A stretch of 56,928 bases of DNA from contig CACCLU010000004.1 in assembly GCA_902546975.1 (NCBI GenBank), positions 153,134-210,061 on the forward strand, read 5' to 3'. Position numbers and translations under genes: made by a program. The stretch is from an uncultured Alphaproteobacteria bacterium (lineage in GTDB: Bacteria > Pseudomonadota > Alphaproteobacteria > HIMB59). The notes beneath the pieces were generated by a model. That model saw nothing but the letters and a program-made list of their open reading frames with translations. It was not told where the DNA came from and searched no databases. Shown piece by piece: positions 6,967 to 20,013 of the stretch. Position 1 is the stretch's first letter, and every line of letters starts with the position of its first letter.

Positions 6967-7884
6967 TTATGAGAATAAATCACCCTCTGTAAATACTGCA
7001 GTATTCATGTCTTTAACAAATAATTTACCTTGGTCTGATTTAAATCTTGATACCTCAATAAATCCACCTTTAACTGCGATTCTGACGTTTTCAGCATTAA
7101 TTGATATGATCTGACCTGGAAAATGCTCAGCACTTTGCTCGTCAATAAACTTAGTGTCATAAAAGACATACTCATCACCCATGAATTCAGCCCATGCACC
7201 AGGCTGAGGGTTGCAACCCCTTATTAAATTATAAATTTCGTTTCCGGGTTTTTTCCAATCAATTCTTGCATCACTTTTTTTACACCAAGACTCATATGTT
7301 GCTTTAGAGTCATCTTGAGGTGTCTTTGGTGCATTACCAGACTCAATTAAATTTGCAGCTTCAACACAAGCTTCAAGACCTAATGGAAATATCTTTTTAA
7401 AGTAAACATCTCCTAAAGTATCATCAGGACCAATATCAACTTCTTTTTGAAGTAATATTTCACCCTCATCTAGCCCATCATTTGGATAAAAAATTGAAAG
7501 ACCTGTTTTTGTGGAGCCACCAATAATAGGCCAGTTTATTGAACTTGGTCCTCTATGGAGTGGAAGTAGTGAGGGGTGAAAACAAATAGATCCATGAGTG
7601 GGAATATCTCTCGCTCCTTCAGGCACAAAAATTATTACATAAGCCATGACACATAAATCCGCACCATGAGACTTAATTTGGTCTAGTACCTCTTGGTCTT
7701 TAAAATTTGAGGGTTGGTAAACAGGCAAACTAACACTTTGAGCGTATTCTTTAACAGGATCGACTGGTTTACCCTCTTTGTCAGGTGCACAATATACCGC
7801 TACTACTTCATGGTCTGTTTCTGTATGAAATTTTTCTAAAGCACTTTTTCCAAATGCCTGTTGCCCCATTAAAATTATTTTCAT
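6967..7884 (-). CDS. Formyl-transferase-fold protein resembling the 10-formyl-THF hydrolase domain of formyl-THF dehydrogenase
   Basis: This 305-residue protein has an N-terminal formyl_trans_N domain (1 to about 180) and a formyl_trans_C domain (about 200-300). The catalytic region is GSICFHPSLLPLHRG (residues 98-112), then GLDEG with Asp139, 36 residues after His103. That spacing equals the His/Asp pair of methionyl-tRNA formyltransferase and FDH. The Asn two residues before the His in Fmt (NxH) is Cys101 here. Overall phrasing (FHPSLLPxHRGxSxINW, LLQKEV, TYE, PGAW) is closest, from memory, to the hydrolase domain of ALDH1L1-type 10-formyl-THF dehydrogenase. It has a good Shine-Dalgarno sequence (AAGGAG) and follows the frc-like gene by 26 bp. 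Annotation pipelines would probably call it fmt. A role in moving formyl units between formyl-CoA, THF and formate is inferred. Confidence 0.8.
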   Translation of the reverse strand: MKIILMGQQAFGKSALEKFHTETDHEVVAVYCAPDKEGKPVDPVKEYAQSVSLPVYQPSNFKDQEVLDQIKSHGADLCVMAYVIIFVPEGARDIPTHGSICFHPSLLPLHRGPSSINWPIIGGSTKTGLSIFYPNDGLDEGEILLQKEVDIGPDDTLGDVYFKKIFPLGLEACVEAANLIESGNAPKTPQDDSKATYESWCKKSDARIDWKKPGNEIYNLIRGCNPQPGAWAEFMGDEYVFYDTKFIDEQSAEHFPGQIISINAENVRIAVKGGFIEVSRFKSDQGKLFVKDMNTAVFTEGDLFS

Positions 7885-7910
7885 TATTGCTCCTTAAATT
7901 AAAATATATC

Positions 7911-9158
7911 TTATACTGCTCCGGCCTCTCTTACAGCTTTAATTTCATCGTCACTCATCTGACAAAATTCTTTTAATATCTCATCAGTATGCTCTCCGAG
8001 AAGTGGAGATCTTTCAACTTTTGCTGGGGAGTCAGATAACTTAATTGGATTACCAACAGTCAAATATTTCCCTCGTTCAGGGTGATCGACTTCGACTATA
8101 GTATTAGTGTCTCTCAGGCCTTGATCTTCAGCTAATTCTTTTAGAGATAATATTGGACCAACTGGTATATCTAAAGGGTTACATATATCCATAACCTCAA
8201 ATTTAGTCTTGGTCATTGTCCATGACTCAATTGAATCAAATATTTCATTTAACCTTGGTAGTCTTTTAGCAGGAGTTGAGTAATTTTCATCCTCTTTCCA
8301 TTCGGGTTTACCAATAACATCACATACTTTTTCCCAAACAGCCGCCTGGGTAATAAAATATGTATATGCGTTAGGATCCTTTTCCCAACCTTTACATTTT
8401 AGAATTCTTCCTGGCTGACCACCACCTGAGTCGTTACCTGCGCGAGGCGTAGAGTCACCAAAAGGAATGTCTTCTCCAAATTGAGAGTATTCTTTTAAAG
8501 GCCCTCTTGAAAGTCTCTGTTGGTCACGAAGTTTAACTCTGCAAAGATTTAAAACTCCATCTTGCATTGCGGCAGATACTCTTTGTCCCTTTCCTGACTT
8601 TTCTCTATGGAATAAAGCAGTAACTATACCCAATGCTAAGTGTAGTCCTGTTCCACTATCTCCTATTTGTGCACCGGTGACTAAAGGAACTTCTCCAAGC
8701 ATACCTGTAGTTGAAGCAGATCCACCTGCGCACTGAGCAACATTCTCATAAACTTTACAATCTTCATATTTGCCAGGACCAAAACCTTTAACAGACGCAT
8801 AAATCATTCTTGGATTTATTTCTTGAATTTTTTCCCATGAAAAGCCCATTCTATCTAAAGCACCAGGAGCAAAATTTTCTACCATGACATCACACTCTTG
8901 GATTAACTTAGTAAATATTTTTGAACCCTCTGGTTTCTTTGGGTTTAATGTTATGCTTCTTTTATTTGAATTTAGCATTGTAAAGTACAAACTGTCTGCA
9001 TCAGGAACGTCTCTTAGCTGACCTCTTGTAGCATCACCCACTCCTGGTCTTTCAACTTTTACGACATCTGCACCAAACCAAGCTAGTAATTGTGTGCAAG
9101 TTGGTCCGGACTGGACATGTGTCATGTCTAATATTTTGACACCTTTTAAAGCTTCCAT
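7911..9158 (-). CDS. frc: Formyl-CoA transferase-like class III CoA-transferase
   Basis: A 415-residue class III (CaiB/BaiF) CoA-transferase, close over its whole length to Oxalobacter formyl-CoA:oxalate CoA-transferase as recalled: [16 protein letters not shown] near the start, [18 protein letters not shown] at about 91-108, KVYENVAQC at 135, catalytic Asp167 in [10 protein letters not shown], the flexible glycine loop SGGGQPG (244-250), LKCKGWE and [10 protein letters not shown] near the end. The family transfers CoA from formyl-CoA to a carboxylate. One substrate-site difference is Gln47 after TRG, where Oxalobacter FRC has Trp48. It has a strong AGGAGG Shine-Dalgarno sequence and lies 16 bp downstream of the ThDP lyase gene. 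Transferase identity is secure; oxalate as substrate is not. Confidence 0.88.
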
Positions 9159-9174
9159 AATTTCCTCCTAAAGT

Positions 9175-10851
9175 TTATTTGTACATAGTCTGGTTTTTTG
9201 TACCAGGAGCAAATTCTTCTTTATCCACCCAAATATTTACGATTGCAGGTATACCTGACTTTACGGCTTCTCTAGCTCTTTGAAGGGCAGGTTGGATTTC
9301 TTTTGCTTCTCTAACAGCTTCGCCATGACCACCAAAGATTTTTGCAAACTCATCAAAGTTAACATCACCCAAGATGTTTCCAACATTTCCTTTATCTTCA
9401 CCATACTTCATAATTTGACCAAATCTGATCTGGTTTTGAGCAGAGTTATTACCAATAACTGTTAAAACAGGTGCTTTGTGTCTGACAAAAGCCTCGAAGT
9501 CCATTCCGGTCATCGAAAAAGCACCATCACCACAATATAAAAGAATTTCTTTTTCAGGTGCAGCTAATTTGGCTGCAAGCGCGTATGGTACTCCGACACC
9601 TAAAGTTCCAAGGGGCCCTGGGTCCATCCAAGCACCAGGCATTCTAGGTTGAACTGCTTGAGCACTTATGGTTACGACGTCTCCTCCATCACCTATGTAT
9701 ATAGTATCATCATTTAAAAACTGGTTGAGTTCCCAAGCTACTCTATAAGGACTAATAGGAGATTTATCTGTTGTAAATGTAGGCATCAATTTTTCTAAAG
9801 CTGCCTCTTCTCCAGATCGAAGTTCATTAAACCAATCTAATCGATCTTTTTTTGTTCCAGCTTCAGAGATAGCCTTTAGAGTTGTTCCTATATGTCCAAC
9901 TAAACCAAGTGATATATCTCTATTTTTTCCAACAGTTCTATAGTCCATATCAATTTGAATAACAGTTGCGTTAGGATTTAATCTTTTACCGTAACCCATT
10001 CTAAAATCAAAAGGTGTTCCAACAATTATAATACAATCTGACTTGGTAAAGGCATTTCTTCTTGTTCTGTGAAAGTGATGTGGGTCTCCAGGAGGCATTG
10101 AACCTCTTGCAGCACCATTTAAATAAGCTGGGATATTCATATTTTTAACAAAGTCGATTGCATCTTTCGTAGATTGGCAAGTCCAAACCTGTTGACCTAA
10201 AAGTATGCATGGTCTCTCTGCATTAGAAATAATATCAGCAGCTTTTTGTACATCTACTGGGTCTGCTAATGTTTTTGATGAAGCACTATATTTTCCAGCT
10301 TCTGGTAAGACGGCTTTGCTCATTGGAATTGAAGAGTCAAGTATGTCTCTTGGAATTTCTAAAAATGATGGACCAAAAGATCCATTTCTGGTTTCCCTAA
10401 AAGCCATTGATACCATGTCTGCACATCTCTCGGTTGACATTACAGTTGCTGCAAATTTTGTAATTGGTTGCATCATGTCTACGTGAGGTAAATCTTGTAA
10501 AGATCCCATTTTATGTTGTGTGAGTGAACTTTGTCCTCCTATTAAAAGCATTGGGATTTCAGCTCTAAAAGCATTTGCTACTCCTGTTAATGCATGTGTC
10601 GTGCCTGGTCCAGCGGTTACAACTGCACACCCAGGTTTACCTGTCATTCTTGCATAACCATCAGCTGCATGAGAGGCAACTTCTTCATGACGTACGTCAA
10701 TAATTTTAATTCCTTCGTTTAGACATCCATTGTAAATATCAATAATGTGTCCCCCACATAAAGTGTAAATAACCTCAACTCCCTCTGCTTTAAGGGCTTT
10801 AGCAACCAGCTCCCCGCCAGTTATCATTTGTTCGTTCGATCCTGTAGACAT
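9175..10851 (-). CDS. ThDP-dependent lyase/decarboxylase, 2-hydroxyacyl-CoA lyase or oxalyl-CoA decarboxylase type
   Basis: A 558-residue enzyme with the three-domain ThDP architecture. The N-terminal pyrimidine-binding domain has activating Glu56 in DVRHEEVASHAADGYAR and the TAGPGTTHALTG loop. A central domain follows. The C-terminal diphosphate-binding domain has GDG at 441-443 and NN at 468-469. The early IYTLCGGHIIDIY region resembles mammalian ILVBL/HACL2 more than canonical Oxalobacter Oxc, which has a GIPITNLA-like sequence there (from memory). The neighbouring Frc-like transferase and formyl-transferase-fold gene argue for cleavage of an acyl-CoA to formyl-CoA. Acetolactate synthase, glyoxylate carboligase or sulfoacetaldehyde acetyltransferase are alternatives. 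The Shine-Dalgarno sequence is AAGAGG. A GntR-type palindrome lies 18 bp upstream of the start. Confidence 0.78.
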   Translation of the reverse strand: MSTGSNEQMITGGELVAKALKAEGVEVIYTLCGGHIIDIYNGCLNEGIKIIDVRHEEVASHAADGYARMTGKPGCAVVTAGPGTTHALTGVANAFRAEIPMLLIGGQSSLTQHKMGSLQDLPHVDMMQPITKFAATVMSTERCADMVSMAFRETRNGSFGPSFLEIPRDILDSSIPMSKAVLPEAGKYSASSKTLADPVDVQKAADIISNAERPCILLGQQVWTCQSTKDAIDFVKNMNIPAYLNGAARGSMPPGDPHHFHRTRRNAFTKSDCIIIVGTPFDFRMGYGKRLNPNATVIQIDMDYRTVGKNRDISLGLVGHIGTTLKAISEAGTKKDRLDWFNELRSGEEAALEKLMPTFTTDKSPISPYRVAWELNQFLNDDTIYIGDGGDVVTISAQAVQPRMPGAWMDPGPLGTLGVGVPYALAAKLAAPEKEILLYCGDGAFSMTGMDFEAFVRHKAPVLTVIGNNSAQNQIRFGQIMKYGEDKGNVGNILGDVNFDEFAKIFGGHGEAVREAKEIQPALQRAREAVKSGIPAIVNIWVDKEEFAPGTKNQTMYK

Positions 10852-10868
10852 TTTTAACCTCTTCTTGG

Positions 10869-10885
10869 TGGTATAATGTATACCA
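10869..10885. promoter_or_regulatory. Putative GntR operator upstream of the ThDP lyase gene
   Basis: A perfect 17-bp palindrome with 7-bp arms, TGGTATA-ATG-TATACCA. The central 13 bases GTATAATGTATAC recur exactly at 14803-14815. It lies between the regulator gene and the lyase gene, 18 bp before the lyase start. On the minus strand a weak promoter (TTGCAA, 17-bp spacer, TACATT) can be drawn with its -10 box inside the palindrome, which would fit repression. The GTATAC-containing symmetry is typical of GntR/FCD regulators, and a FCD-type regulator gene is adjacent. Binding is inferred. Confidence 0.65.
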
Positions 10886-10914
10886 GATTTAGAGGTCTTG
10901 CAAAGAATTTTGCC

Positions 10915-11574
10915 TTATGAATTAATGCTTTCTTGTATCTTATCAACTAAAGTAAGTGCGTGATTTTTAAGAAGTTTTTCTGCTTTTGATCCCTGGCCTG
11001 CGACAAGAGATCTAACAATTTCATTGTGTTCATCAATAGATTTGACAGCTCTATGTGACTCTATTACAAATTTTTTCCTCAAGTATTGTAAATGAATTAA
11101 CTGTGACTCTAAAATTTCTCCCATTAATTTTACTTTAGTTAATTTCATAATTTGATTATGAAATTTAATATTATCATTTGAGTAGTTATCAAGTTCAGAC
11201 AAAACGTTCTCTTTTGAGTAATGACAATACTTATTTAAACTTTCAATCTCATCTTTAGTTGAATTAGCAATAATTAAATGAGCTGCATAACCCTCTAGAC
11301 CTGCCCATACAGTTACAATATCAATCAATTCTTTTTTTGATTTTCTGTGCACAAATACGCCTCTTCTTGGAACTGTTTTAACAATTCCCTCTTGCTCTAA
11401 TTTAGCAACAGCTTCTCGAATAGGTGTCCTACTAACTCCTAGCTTTTCAGATAATTGCCTTTCATCTAGATGAAAATCACTTTGTTTTAAATATATATTA
11501 AGTGACAAAATATATCTTTTTAGTGAGTCGTATACCTTACCTTTTAGGTTTACCGGTCCTATTTTTTGGATCAT
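10915..11574 (-). CDS. GntR family (FCD subfamily) transcriptional regulator
   Basis: A 219-residue regulator. The N-terminal winged helix-turn-helix (about 10-75) has the GntR pattern LDERQLSEKLGVSRTPIREA followed by LEQEGIVKTVPRRGVFV. The C-terminal all-helical FCD domain (about 85-210) has the likely metal-binding residues in DNIKFHNQIM, a later histidine in DEHNEIV, and NHALTL. FCD-type GntR proteins usually sense a small carboxylate that is the substrate of the regulated pathway. It starts immediately after the tctA stop and precedes the lyase gene, so it sits inside the cassette it probably controls. The two identical palindromic cores at 10871 and 14803 are its likely operators. Confidence 0.9.
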   Translation of the reverse strand: MIQKIGPVNLKGKVYDSLKRYILSLNIYLKQSDFHLDERQLSEKLGVSRTPIREAVAKLEQEGIVKTVPRRGVFVHRKSKKELIDIVTVWAGLEGYAAHLIIANSTKDEIESLNKYCHYSKENVLSELDNYSNDNIKFHNQIMKLTKVKLMGEILESQLIHLQYLRKKFVIESHRAVKSIDEHNEIVRSLVAGQGSKAEKLLKNHALTLVDKIQESINS

Positions 11575-13098
11575 TTACGTAGTCTGTGCTTTTTTAAAAA
11601 ATTTTCTGTAAAGAGGGCCAAATGCTGGCATAATTAAAAGCACAATTGCAATATACATTATGATTGCAGCAATAGGTTTTTCTGCCATATCAAAAAATAT
11701 ACCCATACTACCATCAGATAAAATTAGAGACTGTCTTAAAGCTTTTTCAGCTAATGGACCAAGAACAATAGATAAAACAGCTGGTGCCACAGGGTAATCT
11801 AATTTTCTCAAAATGTATCCGGCAAAACCGAATAGCAACATTAACCATACGTCGTGAAGGCTTTGTGTAGGTGCATAACCGCCTGTTACACAAAGAACAA
11901 AAATAACTGGAGCCAAGATGGCAAATGGTATCCGTAATACCATTAAAAAAGCTGGAATTAACGCAATATTTAAAACCAGTGTAAAGAAGTTAGCAATGTA
12001 AAGACTACCAATTAAGCCCCAAACAAACTCGGGTTCTTGAGTGAATAAAAGAGGACCTGGTGTAAGTCCCCATAAAATCATGCCACCAAGTAAAATAGCA
12101 GTCGTAGGTGATCCTGGAATACCTAATGTTAACATAGGGAGCATACTTCCAGTACTAGCAGAATTATTTGCACATTCCGGAGCAACAACTCCAGCAGGAA
12201 CACCTGAACCAAATTCTTTTGAATTTTTTGATAATTGTTTTGTAATTCCATATGACATAAGTGATGCCGGTGTGGCACCTGCCGCAGGGAGTATTCCTAC
12301 AAAGAAACCTAGAAAAGAACCAATGTTCATTGCCATTATAGTTTTTTTAAGAGCGCCAAATGCTCTTCCAACTTCCTTCATGTTGACTGATAATTTTGAC
12401 ATTTGAACTTTACCTTTTGTTTCTTCAAGGGTCCAAAGCATCTCTCCAATTCCATAAATTCCGATAGCAAGTACAAGGAAATTAATTCCATGAAGAAATC
12501 CAGGGATATTAAAGAAAATTAATCTTGGCTTTCCTGTAATTAGATCTAAGCCTATAGTTGATAAAGCTAATCCAATTAATATAGAAAAAATAGTTTTTGG
12601 AACGTCATCTCCACCTAAGCCTACAAATGTTGCAAAGGCCATTACCATTAATGCAAAGGTTTCAGGCGCATTAAATCTTAGTGCTACCTCAGCCAGAGGT
12701 GGTGCAAATAAAGTAAATAAAATAACAGATACAGTTCCACCAACAAAGGAACCTACTGCTGCTGCAGTTAAAGCTGTCATAGCTTCTCCCTTAACAGCTA
12801 AGGGTCTTCCATCAAAAACTGTAGCTACTGCAGTAGAAGCTCCAGGTATACCTAGCATAACGGAACTTATGGCACCTCCATACATAGCGCCGTAATAGAC
12901 AGCTGCTAAAAATATTATTGCTGCAGTGGGTGGTATAATAAATGTAATTGGAATAAGTATTGCAACACCATTAACTGAACCAAGACCAGGCATTGCACCC
13001 ACAAATAAACCAATTAGACAGCCAAATACTAAAAGACCAAGGTTTAATGGTTCAAAGGATACAAAAATTCCCTCTAGAAGAAGTATAAATACATCCAT
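11575..13098 (-). CDS. tctA: Tripartite tricarboxylate transporter large membrane subunit TctA
   Basis: A 507-residue membrane protein of the TctA family, with about 11-12 hydrophobic segments. Typical motifs are FVGAMPGLGSVNGVAILIP near the N-terminus, YYGAMYGGAISSVMLGIPG at about 68-86, the second-repeat counterpart GILPAAGATPASLMSYG, and STGSMLPMLTLGIPGSPTTA. The two GxxPGxG-type repeats form the substrate pathway. It lies in the usual C-B-A order and its stop abuts the gntR start codon. It imports a carboxylate captured by the periplasmic TctC using an ion gradient, plausibly sodium. The substrate is not predictable from sequence, but the frc-like and lyase genes downstream suggest an oxalate-, glycolate- or 2-hydroxyacid-like compound. 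Confidence 0.93.
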   Translation of the reverse strand: MDVFILLLEGIFVSFEPLNLGLLVFGCLIGLFVGAMPGLGSVNGVAILIPITFIIPPTAAIIFLAAVYYGAMYGGAISSVMLGIPGASTAVATVFDGRPLAVKGEAMTALTAAAVGSFVGGTVSVILFTLFAPPLAEVALRFNAPETFALMVMAFATFVGLGGDDVPKTIFSILIGLALSTIGLDLITGKPRLIFFNIPGFLHGINFLVLAIGIYGIGEMLWTLEETKGKVQMSKLSVNMKEVGRAFGALKKTIMAMNIGSFLGFFVGILPAAGATPASLMSYGITKQLSKNSKEFGSGVPAGVVAPECANNSASTGSMLPMLTLGIPGSPTTAILLGGMILWGLTPGPLLFTQEPEFVWGLIGSLYIANFFTLVLNIALIPAFLMVLRIPFAILAPVIFVLCVTGGYAPTQSLHDVWLMLLFGFAGYILRKLDYPVAPAVLSIVLGPLAEKALRQSLILSDGSMGIFFDMAEKPIAAIIMYIAIVLLIMPAFGPLYRKFFKKAQTT

Positions 13099-13126
13099 CT
13101 TTTATGTCTTCACTTTACCAATCTCA

Positions 13127-13651
13127 TTAAGAATACATAAAATCGTATACTGGATAAAATAAGGGCTCTGAAATACCTTGGGGTAAAGGTATTTTTAAAA
13201 GCCATTCAAAAAATAAAAAGGTTAAAACTGGTGTGATTAAAGAGAATACAGATATAAATAGGACACTTTTAGAACTAAAATATCTAAGATAAAAAGCTAA
13301 AAAAAAGATAAGTGAAAAGTAAATTCCCAAATAGCCTATTGCTAAAACTAAAATAACTAATGAAATAATTGTTACTGCAATATATTTGAATGCTTCAGCC
13401 TCAATAAAAGGAGAGTCATCTTTAGATTGTGGTGACCTTTTTAGAACGAATTTAATTATGGTAAGGACAGTGCAAATAAGCATGCCAAGAGAAAGGTAAA
13501 AAGGAAGAAATCCCGCACCCATGTTTTCTTCTGCGTTCCATGTAATTCTATTCTCAACACTTTTAATCATCAGAGCGATTGAGCATAACGCTAAAATAAC
13601 GGCCACCGCAATTTCTGCTCTTTTGACAGTTATTTTGTTTGTTACGCTCAT
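13127..13651 (-). CDS. tctB: Tripartite tricarboxylate transporter small membrane subunit TctB
   Basis: A 174-residue protein with four hydrophobic helices, matching the TctB family by size, topology and position between tctC and tctA. Recognisable are the MGAGFLPFYLSLGMLICTVLT segment after helix 1 (the family's GPGxFP-like motif, here GAGFLPF) and a C-terminal FFEWLLKIPLPQG ending, typical of TctB. The gap to tctC is 19 bp and to tctA 28 bp, so all three form one transcript. It is a partner of TctA in the inner membrane; its exact role in the family is poorly known. Confidence 0.85.
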   Translation of the reverse strand: MSVTNKITVKRAEIAVAVILALCSIALMIKSVENRITWNAEENMGAGFLPFYLSLGMLICTVLTIIKFVLKRSPQSKDDSPFIEAEAFKYIAVTIISLVILVLAIGYLGIYFSLIFFLAFYLRYFSSKSVLFISVFSLITPVLTFLFFEWLLKIPLPQGISEPLFYPVYDFMYS

Positions 13652-13670
13652 ATCACTCTTAATTTAAATA

Positions 13671-14648
13671 TTAGTCAAAGTTTTTAATGATCTCACCGTG
13701 CTTAGCATATTCGATTGCTAAGAAATCTTTCAGACCAAAACCCTCTAACCAGCTCATTAACTTTCCATCGTCGATGTTGAAAGTTTGGAATTCGTCATCA
13801 TGATAAACAGTGTGAAGAAGTCCTGTGTAGTACTTCTCTACCTCTGCATCAACACCAGCTGGAGCCATAAATGCTCTCATCATATAGTATTCAAGATCAG
13901 GATAACCTAATTCATATGAAGATGGTACTTCTGGGAATGCAGGATTTCTCTCAGGAGTCATCATAACTAATGCTTTTGAATCACCTGATTGATAGAATCC
14001 CATCTGCTCAGAAGGGTTGTTTAATGTAAAATCTGACTCGCCGCCAACTAGACCTTTTGCAACAGCACCACCACCGTCATATGGTACGTACTTTGCATCA
14101 AATCCAAACTGACCTCTCATCATACCAAGAAGTAATTCGTCCTCAGACATACTTCCTGTACCACCCATTACTAGACCATTGCCTTTAGCAAGTGCGATGA
14201 AGTCATCAAATGTTTCTACACCTTGAGTATTTTTACCTTCAGTTGCAATCCATACTAAGAATGTATCTGTAATAAGTCTTGCTAATGGTGTGAAGTCATT
14301 AAAGAAGTCAATTCCTAACTCAGGCTGGTTAACAGGTGTAGTTAGAACGTTGTTAAGAGTAATGATAAGTGTGTGCTCATCACCAGCTTTTTTCTTAACA
14401 TAAGTCATAGCTTCACCACCAGAACCACCTTTTTTATTAATCGGAATCACTGGCTTAGATGCGTAGTCGTTTTTCTCGATAACACCTTGAACTAATCTAG
14501 CAATTTCGTCAGCTCCACCACCTTGACCAGCTGGGATAATAAGTTCAATAGGCTTCTTTGGACTAAAAGGCTTCGCAGAAGACACTGAACTAACAGCGAC
14601 AAGTGAAAGTGAAACAATAACTAATGCTAATTTTTTGATTATTGACAT
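13671..14648 (-). CDS. tctC: Tripartite tricarboxylate transporter periplasmic substrate-binding protein TctC
   Basis: A 325-residue protein starting with a signal peptide (MSIIKKLALVIVSLSLVAVS, cleavage probably after SSVSSA), then the mature start FSPKKPIELIIPAGQGGGADE, which is the Bug/TctC family signature. Later features include NKKGGSGGEAM, the ligand-loop region GGTGSMSEDELLLG, and YDGGGAVAKGLVGGESDF. It binds a carboxylate in the periplasm and hands it to TctA/B. It is the first gene of the cassette and has a very strong Shine-Dalgarno sequence (TAGGAGG, 7 bp before ATG), consistent with high expression of a binding protein in an oligotroph. Bug proteins bind diverse mono-, di- and tricarboxylates; the ligand here is unknown. 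Confidence 0.93.
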   Translation of the reverse strand: MSIIKKLALVIVSLSLVAVSSVSSAKPFSPKKPIELIIPAGQGGGADEIARLVQGVIEKNDYASKPVIPINKKGGSGGEAMTYVKKKAGDEHTLIITLNNVLTTPVNQPELGIDFFNDFTPLARLITDTFLVWIATEGKNTQGVETFDDFIALAKGNGLVMGGTGSMSEDELLLGMMRGQFGFDAKYVPYDGGGAVAKGLVGGESDFTLNNPSEQMGFYQSGDSKALVMMTPERNPAFPEVPSSYELGYPDLEYYMMRAFMAPAGVDAEVEKYYTGLLHTVYHDDEFQTFNIDDGKLMSWLEGFGLKDFLAIEYAKHGEIIKNFD

Positions 14649-17005: not shown

Positions 17006-17878
17006 ATGTCAGTATTAATTAATAAAAACACAAAAGTTATTTGCCAGGGTTTTACTGGTTCTCAAGGTACATTTCACTCAGAACAAGCTATAAAATATGG
17101 AACTCAAATGGTTGGTGGGGTGACACCAAAGAAAGGTGGTCAAGAGCATTTAGGACTTCCTGTGTTTAATAGTGTTAAAGAGGCAAAAGACAACACAGAT
17201 GCAAATGCAACTGTAATATACGTTCCACCTCCTTTTGCAGCTGGTGCTATAACTGAAGCGATTGATGCAGACATGGAAATAATTGTTTGTATAACTGAAG
17301 GAGTTCCAGTTCTTGATATGATGCAAGTAAAAAGAAAATTGGAAAAATCAAAATCGCGTTTAATTGGACCCAACTGCCCTGGAATAATTACTCCTGATGA
17401 ATGCAAAATAGGCATTATGCCAGGTCATATTCACCAAAAAGGAAAAATAGGAGTTGTTAGTAGATCTGGCACATTGACATATGAAGCAGTAGCACAAACT
17501 TCTGCTGTAGGTCTAGGTCAATCGACTTGTATTGGTATTGGGGGAGATCCTATTAACGGAACAAACTTTATAGATTGCCTTGATCTCTTTTTAAAAGATC
17601 CGGAAACCGAAGGAATCATAATGATCGGAGAGATTGGTGGAACTGCTGAAGAGGAAGCTGCAGAATTTATTAAAAAATCTGAAATAAAAAAACCAGTTGC
17701 TTCTTTTATAGCTGGTGCTAGTGCTCCTGCTGGAAAAAGAATGGGTCATGCAGGTGCAATTATTTCGGGTGGAAAAGGCACCGCAGAGTCAAAGTTTAGT
17801 GCTTTAGAGGAAGCAGGAGTTCATATATCCAAATCACCAGCAAAACTAGGTGAGACAATCAAAGAGGCTTTAAACTAA
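17006..17878 (+). CDS. sucD: Succinate-CoA ligase alpha subunit
   Basis: A 290-residue CoA-binding subunit. The N-terminal Rossmann part has [19 protein letters not shown] and [11 protein letters not shown], the usual SucD signature. The C-terminal part has [30 protein letters not shown] and the phosphohistidine loop [15 protein letters not shown] with His248. It follows sucC by 10 bp with an AAAGGAG Shine-Dalgarno sequence. Its TAA stop overlaps the TAG stop of the convergent ketopantoate-reductase-like gene by 4 bp, leaving no room for a terminator hairpin between them. Confidence 0.93.
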
Positions 17879-18852
17879 TATAATTTAGCTTCTTTAGCTC
17901 TAAGTTTAGTTAAAGCAAGAACTGTATCAATTGTAGGAGTTGGAACATTTGTAATTTTTCCAAGCTCTTGAACAGATGTGATTAAAGCATCAATCTCCAT
18001 AGGTCTATCACGTTCTAAATCTTGAAGCATAGATGTTTTATGTTCGCCAACTGCTTTAGCTGCATCAATTCTTCTCTCAACATCGAAAGGCTTGTCTATT
18101 CCTAAATTTTGAGAAATTGCATGAGCCTCATTCATCATATTTTTTATGACGGCTCTGACTTCGTCATTGCTGCAAATTTTGACAAGTGTAGATGTTGTAA
18201 GTGCACTGATAGGATTAAGAGAAAGATTACCAAAAAGTTTTAACCAGATATCGCCTTTTATATTAGGTCTAACAGGTGCTTGAAAGCCTGCTTTCTCTAA
18301 AGTCTCAGAAAGATTTTTAATTCTATCTGTTTCCTCTCCATTAATTTCTCCTAGTTGAAACTTATCTCCCTCTAAGTGCTGAATAACGCCTGGTTTGATA
18401 ACTTCTGATGCGGGATTAACTATACAGCCGATGATTTTTTCAGGGCCAATTCGATCCCATTGACTTCCATCTGGATCAACTGAAGTAACTTTTTTATCTT
18501 TGAAATCAGGGTTAGTGTGATTGTAGAAATACCACCATGGGATACCATTCACACCCCAAACAAATGAAGTATCATCTTTCATAAGAACTTCAAATGCATC
18601 AAGACAACCCGGAACTGAATGAGCTTTTAAAGTAACAAAAATATAGTCTTGCTTTCCAGCTTTTTCCGCAGTGTCTACACATTTTGGATATACAACTAGT
18701 TCTTTGCCATCTTTTCTTAATCTCAATCCATCTTGCTTAATAGCCTGATAATGAGGCCCTCTAGCAATTAAAGTTACATCTGCACCTATATTAGTGAGTT
18801 TTGCTCCCAGATAACCACCAATAGCTCCTGCACCGTATATACAAATTTTCAT
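17875..18852 (-). CDS. Ketopantoate reductase (PanE/ApbA) family dehydrogenase
   Basis: A 325-residue NADP-type reductase. The Rossmann motif [15 protein letters not shown] is at the N-terminus. [10 protein letters not shown] and [10 protein letters not shown] follow, then the catalytic-type lysine region [20 protein letters not shown]. The C-terminal helical domain has [18 protein letters not shown], the conserved family segment with the Glu contacting substrate. The fold and motifs are firm, but many members do not act on ketopantoate. It starts 1 base after the stop of the serine-glyoxylate aminotransferase gene, so the two are co-expressed. Since that aminotransferase makes hydroxypyruvate, reduction of a 2-oxo acid in the same route is a reasonable inference, with panE as the conservative alternative. 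Confidence 0.8.
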
Positions 18853-20013
18853 TTAAGCCTTTAAATGTTTGATGGCAGCAGCAACACCACTTCCAAGTTC
18901 AAATTTTATTCCCACATCGTACATGGCTAATTCTGCGGTAGAGATTGCACCTAAAATCATGGTGCTATTTAAATCTCCAAGGTGGCCTATTCTAAACAAC
19001 TTTCCAGCTACTTTATTAAGCCCTCCACCAAACGAGGTGTTATACTTGTTGTATGCTGTTTTAACAACATCAGTAGAGTCAATTCCCTCAGGTACCATTA
19101 TTGCTGTAACAGTATTTGAATAAAGTGATGGATCTTTTGCACAAAGTTTAAGACCCCATGCATTAGATGCTTTTTGAACAGCTTGTGCTAAAAATTTATG
19201 ACGTGCATAAATATTATCAATTCCCTCTTCCATCATCATATTAAGCGCCTCTCTAAGTCCTCTTAGAAGTGGCATTGGATTAGTGTAAGGCCAATAGCCT
19301 GTTTCATTTATTTTAAGCATATCATGATAATCATAGTAAGCTCTGGGTAAGTTAGATGTTTTTGCAATTTCTAATGCCTTTTGGCTTACACAAGATATAG
19401 CTAAACCAGCAGGTAACATAAATCCTTTTTGAGAGCCTGAAACTGCAACATCAACCCCCCATGCATCCATTTCAAATTTGATTGAGCCAATTGAGCTTAC
19501 GCCATCAACAAGTAATAAGGCTGGATGATTTAGATTATTTAAAAGATCTCTTGTTGCTTTGACATCATTTGTAACGCCTGTTGAAGTTTCATTATGAGTT
19601 ACAAGAACTGCTTTAATTTTATGATCTTTGTCTTCTGATAATATTTTTTCAAATTCGTCATGAGGCGTCCCGGAACCCCACTCTAAATCAACTTCCTCAA
19701 CATCAATATGTAGTTTTTTACACATTTCTATCCAAAGGTGTGAAAAATGTCCAAATCTAGCTGATAAAACTTTATCTCCCTTACTTAATAAATTTGTAAG
19801 TGCTGCTTCCCATCCACTTGAACCTGTACCAGGGAATATAATTGGTTGTGCAGATGTTGTCTCAAAAACTTTTTTTAAATCCTTTATTAGTGGGTGCCAA
19901 AATTTATCCATACCGGGTGCACGGTGGTCCTCGTTTGAAATATCCATCGCCTGTCTTACCCTATCTGGCATGTTTGTAGGTCCTGGTACGAAAAGTGAAA
20001 TTTTACCTGGCAT
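18853..20013 (-). CDS. sgaA: Serine-glyoxylate aminotransferase (PLP, class V)
   Basis: A 386-residue class V PLP aminotransferase. The start MPGKISLFVPGPTNMPDRVR and EDHRAPGMD match SgaA/AGXT proteins. IFPGTGSSGWEAALTNLLS binds cofactor phosphate. THNETSTGVTNDV, LLVDGVSSIGSIKFEMDAWG and the PLP-lysine loop AVSGSQKGFMLPAGL follow, and MMMEEGIDNIYARHKFLA near the C-terminal domain is typical of serine-glyoxylate enzymes of methylotrophs. It converts serine plus glyoxylate to hydroxypyruvate plus glycine. It is transcribed with the PanE-like gene. With glyA at 33348-34625 it could form part of a glyoxylate/serine C1 route, although no other serine-cycle gene is visible. Confidence 0.9.
   Translation of the reverse strand: MPGKISLFVPGPTNMPDRVRQAMDISNEDHRAPGMDKFWHPLIKDLKKVFETTSAQPIIFPGTGSSGWEAALTNLLSKGDKVLSARFGHFSHLWIEMCKKLHIDVEEVDLEWGSGTPHDEFEKILSEDKDHKIKAVLVTHNETSTGVTNDVKATRDLLNNLNHPALLLVDGVSSIGSIKFEMDAWGVDVAVSGSQKGFMLPAGLAISCVSQKALEIAKTSNLPRAYYDYHDMLKINETGYWPYTNPMPLLRGLREALNMMMEEGIDNIYARHKFLAQAVQKASNAWGLKLCAKDPSLYSNTVTAIMVPEGIDSTDVVKTAYNKYNTSFGGGLNKVAGKLFRIGHLGDLNSTMILGAISTAELAMYDVGIKFELGSGVAAAIKHLKA

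Follow-up and report, generated by a model that had tools for sequence, protein, structure and literature searches.

A predicted oxalate cassette in a HIMB59 alphaproteobacterium combines Frc with a thiamine-dependent lyase from outside the Oxc family

Oxalate catabolism by the frc-oxc(-oxlT) genes is described in Oxalobacter, Methylorubrum and Cupriavidus necator. According to excerpts of PMC7486775, growth of C. necator on oxalate is abolished by loss of the frc-oxc operon and slowed by loss of the PanE homologue apbA2. In Escherichia coli, YfdE is proposed to prime the Frc/Oxc cycle, as stated in part of PMC3720670. Here we compare with these systems a cassette of seven genes at positions 6967-14648 of a 56,928-nucleotide window (the whole stretch of DNA analysed) from contig CACCLU010000004.1 of an uncultured HIMB59 alphaproteobacterium. 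The cassette encodes a coenzyme A (CoA) transferase of the Frc type, a thiamine diphosphate (ThDP) enzyme called the lyase below, a formyltransferase-fold protein (FT), a regulator and an importer.

Our reading, to which we give a probability of about three in four, is that the cassette serves oxalate uptake and use, with the lyase acting as oxalyl-CoA decarboxylase and FT linking formyl-CoA with 10-formyl-tetrahydrofolate (10-formyl-THF). Gene content, families, neighbourhoods, co-occurrence, trees and conserved residues were observed directly, and all substrates and reactions, as well as which way the formyl group moves, are read from them. The TctCBA importer is predicted, from the position of its genes, to import oxalate. 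Frc would transfer CoA from formyl-CoA to oxalate, yielding oxalyl-CoA and formate, and the lyase, although not a member of the Oxc family, may act as Oxc does and convert oxalyl-CoA to formyl-CoA and CO2. Between them, Frc and the lyase would hold the number of CoA thioesters constant and so run a closed cycle. In the openly licensed literature, a restriction that makes absence weak evidence, we found no description of an oxalate locus with this lyase and FT, no paper joining Oxc, Frc, a formyltransferase and tetrahydrofolate, none on HIMB59 and oxalate, none on oxalate use in Cupriavidus with an acetolactate synthase and a formyl-CoA transferase, and, for formyl-CoA with formyl-tetrahydrofolate and oxalate, papers on hydrogenase maturation only.

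Frc and the ThDP lyase

The seven open reading frames were all verified as intact and collinear on the minus strand, transcribed in the order tctC, tctB, tctA, gntR, ThDP lyase, frc and FT. The gaps between them, by ascending coordinate, are 26, 16, 63, 0, 28 and 19 bases. The CoA-transferase (7911..9158, minus strand, 415 aa; Pfam CoA_transf_3) scored 693.5 bits against the oxalate Frc model TIGR03253 (cut-off 504.2) and 540 bits against E. coli Frc, to which it is 59% identical. It retains the catalytic D167 and the glycine loop GGGQ at 245-248. Judged by sequence it is a true Frc, formyl-CoA:oxalate CoA-transferase, and no other protein of the window genome matches the class III CoA-transferase family.

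The lyase (9175..10851, minus strand, 558 aa; three Pfam TPP_enzyme domains, N, M and C), our candidate non-orthologous oxalyl-CoA decarboxylase, stays below the cut-off of the Oxc model TIGR03254 (247.5 bits against 739.4) and of the 2-hydroxyacyl-CoA lyase (HACL) model NF058623 (351.5 against 600). The same was found for its top-scoring NCBIfam model, acetolactate synthase PRK05858/NF004516 (485.9 against 587), and for sulfoacetaldehyde acetyltransferase, judged by NCBIfam score only (228 against 620). In a tree of 62 rows, 30 lyases form one clade and 14 Oxc proteins another (support 100/100 each), eight HACL proteins adjoin Oxc (97/90), and IlvB, Gcl and PoxB fall outside. The lyase lies outside the HACL clade, and AcHACL, a 2-hydroxyisobutyryl-CoA lyase, attaches to its side with weak support (90/39) and a very long branch. 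The deep order of the tree is unsure because the terminal branches of AcHACL, IlvB, Gcl, PoxB and others are very long. Placement in this tree excludes acetolactate synthase, Gcl and PoxB as identities of the lyase, and score, clade and residues exclude membership of the canonical Oxc family. Relatives at 41-42% identity (L068, L069, L071), with no frc nearby, form a sister group.

The partners of frc were counted in a sample of 385 genomes of the class, taking frc and Oxc above curated cut-offs and the lyase at 62-100% identity; three lyase matches at 41-42% were excluded. We found frc in 35 genomes, Oxc in 19 and the lyase in 17 (frc of G219 is truncated at a contig end and the lyase of G458 is partial). 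Among the 35 frc genomes, 18 hold Oxc without the lyase, 16 hold the lyase without Oxc, one lacks the two and none combines them (Fisher p 4e-9, kinship ignored); the 16 include the window genome and its genus, which together contribute four. The lyase occurs in 11 families and Oxc in 10, with no overlap. Genome G386 carries frc and OxlT (L237:7943-10245) with neither Oxc nor lyase; its frc is followed directly by a gene for a 351 aa protein that matches nothing in Pfam or NCBIfam. This locus may be a form for assimilation alone.

Canonical Oxc clusters, of which we inspected 19 loci, have the same make-up as the cassette, with Oxc sitting in the slot of the lyase. The order is TctA-GntR-Oxc-Frc-FT in L221 and L222, GntR-Oxc-Frc-FT with the Tct genes on the opposite side in L223, L232 and L234, and OxlT-GntR-Oxc-Frc-FT in L220. 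In the Frc tree (67 rows), partners of the lyase and of Oxc interleave, with seven changes, at least five of them forced by strong branches; lyase-associated L066 pairs with Oxc-associated L233, and likewise L217 with L226. The Frc and FT trees are quick trees with Shimodaira-Hasegawa-like approximate likelihood ratio (SH-aLRT) support only, and their loci were hand-picked among those retrieved. That close Frc relatives stand beside either enzyme argues for a common intermediate. Most likely, the lyase fills the slot of Oxc as a second, non-orthologous candidate for oxalyl-CoA decarboxylase.

Neighbourhoods were further compared in the best 80 of at least 567 confirmed lyase relatives in GTDB genomes, which are 72-83% identical to the first query row and whose record titles name Alpha-, Beta-, Gamma- and Deltaproteobacteria, SAR324, SAR116, Gemmatimonadetes/Longimicrobiales and Binatia. 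Eight records of a plasmid collection (Streptomyces, Nonomuraea, Phyllobacterium, Cupriavidus, Caballeronia) hold a lyase at 63-65%. Of the 80 named loci, 74 have frc close to the lyase, and in 73 of these the two are no more than 300 bases apart. The lyase is also present in 42 of the 52 genomes listed for the genus of the window genome, itself counted (31 more genomes without a match, of unknown kinship, lie outside the 52). The cassette is thus not a chance arrangement: its lyase recurs in the genus, and frc is near the lyase in most named loci. OxlT was found in 23 of the 80 loci, TctA in 30 and both in one; the single OxlT put to a score, that of a Phyllobacterium locus, reaches 623 bits against a cut-off of 335 as an oxalate/formate antiporter equivalog. 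The lyase clade is annotated merely as "thiamine pyrophosphate-binding protein". Three loci with wide flanks (L144, L205, L211) carry TctCBA and the lyase with frc not nearby; frc may lie elsewhere, or activation may proceed in another way. A gene of the fumarylacetoacetate-hydrolase fold, noted in the lyase loci L051, L052, L053 and L055, occurs in 21 of the 80 named loci; it is mostly accompanied by OxlT.

The remaining genes of the cassette, all on the minus strand, encode a GntR/FCD-type regulator (10915..11574, 219 aa; Pfam GntR and FCD), the large membrane subunit TctA (11575..13098; Pfam TctA, 481 bits), the small membrane subunit TctB (13127..13651; Pfam TctB, 72 bits) and the binding protein TctC (13671..14648; Pfam TctC, 83 bits). 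The three Tct subunits stand together, as expected by Pfam for a tripartite tricarboxylate transporter (TTT). The window genome spans 1.29 Mb in 12 contigs and is 94% complete.

FT and the refilling of formyl-CoA

FT (6967..7884, minus strand; Pfam Formyl_trans_N/C) is a stand-alone protein of 305 aa with no carrier-protein or dehydrogenase domains by Pfam. Its best sequence match in the PDB is 4qpd, the hydrolase domain of 10-formyl-THF dehydrogenase, at 215 bits; the best Fmt match reaches 134 bits, and a profile search likewise ranks the dehydrogenase domain above Fmt. Against the Fmt model TIGR00460 it scored 157 bits (cut-off 201.5). A separate true Fmt (259 bits) is encoded elsewhere in the window genome, which excludes FT as the housekeeping Fmt. 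The triad of the dehydrogenase hydrolase domain, His106, Ser108 and Asp142, is retained in FT as H103, S105 and D139; H103 and S105 occur in every one of 83 aligned rows, among which some genomes are repeated, and D139 in at least 97%, with invariance in 13 of 13 in a further comparison. The predicted model of FT has a predicted local distance difference test score (pLDDT) of 90, and by Foldseek E-value the 10-formyl-THF dehydrogenase domain ranks first.

FT was searched for in the 385 class genomes at E <= 1e-45, counting 36 frc genomes with the partial one included. It was found in 34 genomes, namely 29 of the 36 bearing frc and five of the 349 others. Of these five, G427, G434 and G504 carry members of the HACL clade, another group that handles formyl-CoA. 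The distance from FT to frc is at most 1 kb in 17 of the 34 genomes, whether lyase or Oxc is the partner; of the 29 genomes searched for formate-THF ligase, 12 have it within 1 kb of FT. In the named lyase loci FT occurs in 31 of 80, with formate-THF ligase directly after it in 16 of the 31. Around the FT copies away from frc, no neighbour besides FT itself was common to more than five of 13 loci.

As reported in excerpts of PMC6802093, the acceptor of the formyl group of 10-formyl-THF is a 4-phosphopantetheine thiol in the case of the 10-formyl-THF dehydrogenase domain and, by proposal, CoA in the case of HypX. Because CoA ends in the same thiol arm, we infer that FT moves formyl groups between folate and CoA; by this analogy, its most likely role would be transfer between 10-formyl-THF and CoA, in either direction. 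With formate-THF ligase, which is present in the window genome, FT could restore formyl-CoA at the expense of formate and ATP and thereby prime and refill the cycle; alternatively, it may take the formyl group off CoA for one-carbon metabolism. A different role for FT alone, as a plain hydrolase releasing formate from 10-formyl-THF or formyl-CoA or as an ordinary folate enzyme that merely happens to be located there, appears to us rather unlikely. Its nearest sequence relative is named a hydrolase domain, and more than a third of the FT copies in frc genomes lie away from frc. Hydrolysing 10-formyl-THF beside the ligase that makes it would, however, be futile, and FT is strongly tied to frc genomes (29/36 against 5/349).

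Refilling bears on two further genes of the window. A PanE-like reductase (17875..18852, minus strand; NF005089, 454 bits against 223), a candidate oxalyl-CoA reductase, and a BhcA-like aspartate-glyoxylate aminotransferase (18853..20013, minus strand; NF045640, 573 bits, under the cut-off of 650) lie 3 kb beyond the cassette. The pair also occurs in four loci of the same genus (L072-L075), and the reductase is about 53% identical to the PanE beside lyase and frc in Cupriavidus, a PanE of the type linked to growth on oxalate in C. necator. Both genes are probably linked to the cassette; BhcA-like genes near three other FT loci, 7 to 8 kb away, were set aside. PanE may divert oxalyl-CoA to glyoxylate, from which the BhcA-like enzyme could make glycine. 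A thioester would then have to be replaced, because each oxalyl-CoA diverted by PanE costs the cycle one. The window genome also encodes a formate dehydrogenase alpha subunit (756 bits, cut-off 666).

A nucleoside diphosphate-forming acyl-CoA ligase (ACD) could rebuild formyl-CoA in one step. No ACD-type ligase was found in the window genome at E<=1e-100. In two annotated Phyllobacterium loci, lyase and frc are accompanied by OxlT, PanE, ACD and a SucCD-like ligase, and ACD is present in the Oxc loci L218 and L233. ACD-type and SucCD-like ligases near lyase and frc were noted in L050-L053, L167, L173 and L176; they might serve to activate oxalate or formate at the cost of ATP. Among 72 well-flanked lyase loci, 25 have FT, 27 ACD and one both (Fisher 8e-6). 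In a kinship-aware test with seven independent pairs this was not significant (median p 0.25), and FT and ACD never changed in the same direction across 200 random pairings. The alternation of FT and ACD is only a lead because that test had too few pairs.

An earlier note on the window, made from its letters, had described the seven genes, their families and the motifs of the ThDP enzyme (E56/GDG/NN) and of Frc (Asp167, glycine loop), and all were found as described. Its boundaries, 6967-14648, hold for the seven genes and leave out the PanE-like and BhcA-like pair. Co-conservation of lyase, frc and formyltransferase, which it proposed, is borne out in the census and the named loci; its formyl-CoA cycle of Frc and ThDP enzyme gains support as a reading, as does the formyl/folate link of the third enzyme, from the tie of FT to frc genomes and from its relatives. 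Neither outcome that it had set against itself occurred: in the tree the lyase groups with none of IlvB, Gcl and PoxB, for sulfoacetaldehyde acetyltransferase it stays below the NCBIfam cut-off, and the gene set is co-conserved.

Reaction of the lyase

The lyase keeps the ThDP-activating E56, GDG 441-443 and NN 468-469, which are common to the whole superfamily and hence unspecific. Across 20 aligned members of its family, a motif NNSxxNQIR and a C-terminal QTMYK are invariant. The substrate residues of Oxc, in O. formigenes numbers, are Y120, E121, Y483 and S553 (parts of PMC8411744 and PMC7190790). The predicted model of the lyase has a mean pLDDT of 84, and we claim no active-site geometry because its tail falls below 50. 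Benzaldehyde lyase, AcHACL and HACL rank first in a Foldseek search with this model.

Several observations weigh against the assignment of the cassette to oxalate with these roles for lyase and FT. To our knowledge, no activity is known for either protein. The lyase has Leu118, Gln119 and Asn473 at the Oxc columns Y120, E121 and Y483 and no clear counterpart of S553, the tail column being uncertain in the alignment. Its nearest solved relative by sequence is AcHACL, at about 30% identity, and Foldseek places Oxc (Methylorubrum) only at rank 48. The exclusivity of Oxc and lyase is not absolute, since canonical Oxc is also present in five of 22 named lyase genomes, and the Fisher p-values take no account of kinship. 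Six of the 80 named lyase loci are without frc (L144, L155, L178, L204, L205, L211), of which L155, L178 and L204 end near a contig edge. With regard to FT, 12 of the 29 copies in frc genomes and all five others do not adjoin frc, and the formate-THF ligase of the window genome lies on another contig, away from the cassette. Energetically, the transfer probably runs downhill from formyl-CoA towards 10-formyl-THF. The template modelling score (TM-score) favours Fmt structures for the FT model (up to 0.92) over the dehydrogenase domain (0.86), and because E-value and TM-score disagree, the fold does not decide between the two.

The lyase might instead be a true HACL, so that an imported 2-hydroxy acid, activated by Frc with formyl-CoA, would be cleaved to a carbonyl compound and formyl-CoA. 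This would fit AcHACL as the nearest solved sequence, the motif LQD-[IL]-PH shared with it, and the Gln that replaces Oxc Glu121, as in HACL and AcHACL. The catalytic E493 of AcHACL, however, is not conserved in the lyase, which stands outside the HACL clade. The lyase is paired with an oxalate-type Frc and repeatedly accompanied by OxlT and PanE, and it alternates with Oxc on Frc lineages common to both. We regard a 2-hydroxyacyl-CoA substrate as improbable.

Engineered Oxc and HACL can join formyl-CoA to aldehydes. That the locus serves oxalate while the lyase is a carboligase, joining formyl-CoA (or a formyl group derived from oxalyl-CoA) to an aldehyde such as glyoxylate, is more improbable still: the fold neighbours of the lyase are lyases and carboligases, PanE would supply glyoxylate and wild-type Oxc is a slow carboligase in a side reaction (excerpts of PMC8411744), but this role would leave 16 of the 35 frc genomes without a decarboxylase for the cycle, and Frc lineages switch between lyase and Oxc.

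Oxalyl-CoA decarboxylation thus takes the place, as the likeliest ThDP step, of the 2-hydroxyacyl-CoA cleavage favoured in the earlier note, and oxalate becomes the likeliest acid. That note had also remarked that a TTT importer and a formyl-THF-type enzyme do not belong to the textbook oxalate operon; both are common beside canonical Oxc, so that their presence signals a widespread type of oxalate locus rather than a different substrate. The unusual part is the lyase itself, which the note had counted among the Oxc/HACL enzymes and which stands in a clade by itself.

Significance and comparison with known systems

We advance tentatively the wider proposal that the lyases could be a second, separately evolved family of oxalyl-CoA decarboxylases, spread over Proteobacteria, Actinomycetota, Gemmatimonadota and others, and that FT could be a stand-alone 10-formyl-THF:CoA formyltransferase which refills formyl-CoA with formate-THF ligase. 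Surveys of oxalate use based on oxc would then miss organisms, the lyase being present in 16 of the 35 frc genomes of the class sample against 18 for Oxc. A ThDP clade so far named by its cofactor would gain a function, and its active site, being built differently, would widen the choice for reactions of oxalyl-CoA and formyl-CoA, useful in synthetic one-carbon work. FT, if correctly assigned, would connect CoA-bound and folate-bound formyl groups directly and make the priming of the Frc cycle and its drainage to biomass testable. With formate-THF ligase it would provide a refill that allows diversion of oxalyl-CoA to glyoxylate and biomass, replacing an ATP-driven acyl-CoA ligase.

Among described proteins, AcHACL is the best solved sequence match to the lyase and has its LQD-[IL]-PH motif; the two share only about 30% identity and differ in E493, which the lyase does not have. 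We know of no Frc-type partner of AcHACL. FT resembles the hydrolase domain of 10-formyl-THF dehydrogenase (4qpd), its top match by sequence and by Foldseek E-value, in the retained triad, whereas FT is stand-alone and has Gln or Cys at the position of Ile104 in that domain. The N-terminal domain of HypX/HoxX (6j1f) shares the fold of FT and the proposed movement of formyl from 10-formyl-THF to CoA (excerpts of PMC6802093). It is distant (~69 bits with an FT profile), it is fused to a decarbonylating domain, and the Ser of the triad is not kept. E. coli YfdE, an acetyl-CoA:oxalate CoA-transferase, is proposed in part of PMC3720670 for the priming role that we suggest for FT; it belongs to a different family, and the only class III CoA-transferase of the window genome is Frc.

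The closest likeness is to frc-oxc(-oxlT) catabolism, with which the cassette shares an Frc equivalog and an adjacent ThDP enzyme, OxlT and PanE among its relatives, and the make-up of the canonical Oxc clusters of its class. It differs in a ThDP enzyme from another clade, in a TTT importer in place of OxlT in the window, and in the inclusion of a folate-type formyltransferase gene. The cassette would accordingly represent a system of known kind, in which the functions of the lyase and of FT would be new assignments.

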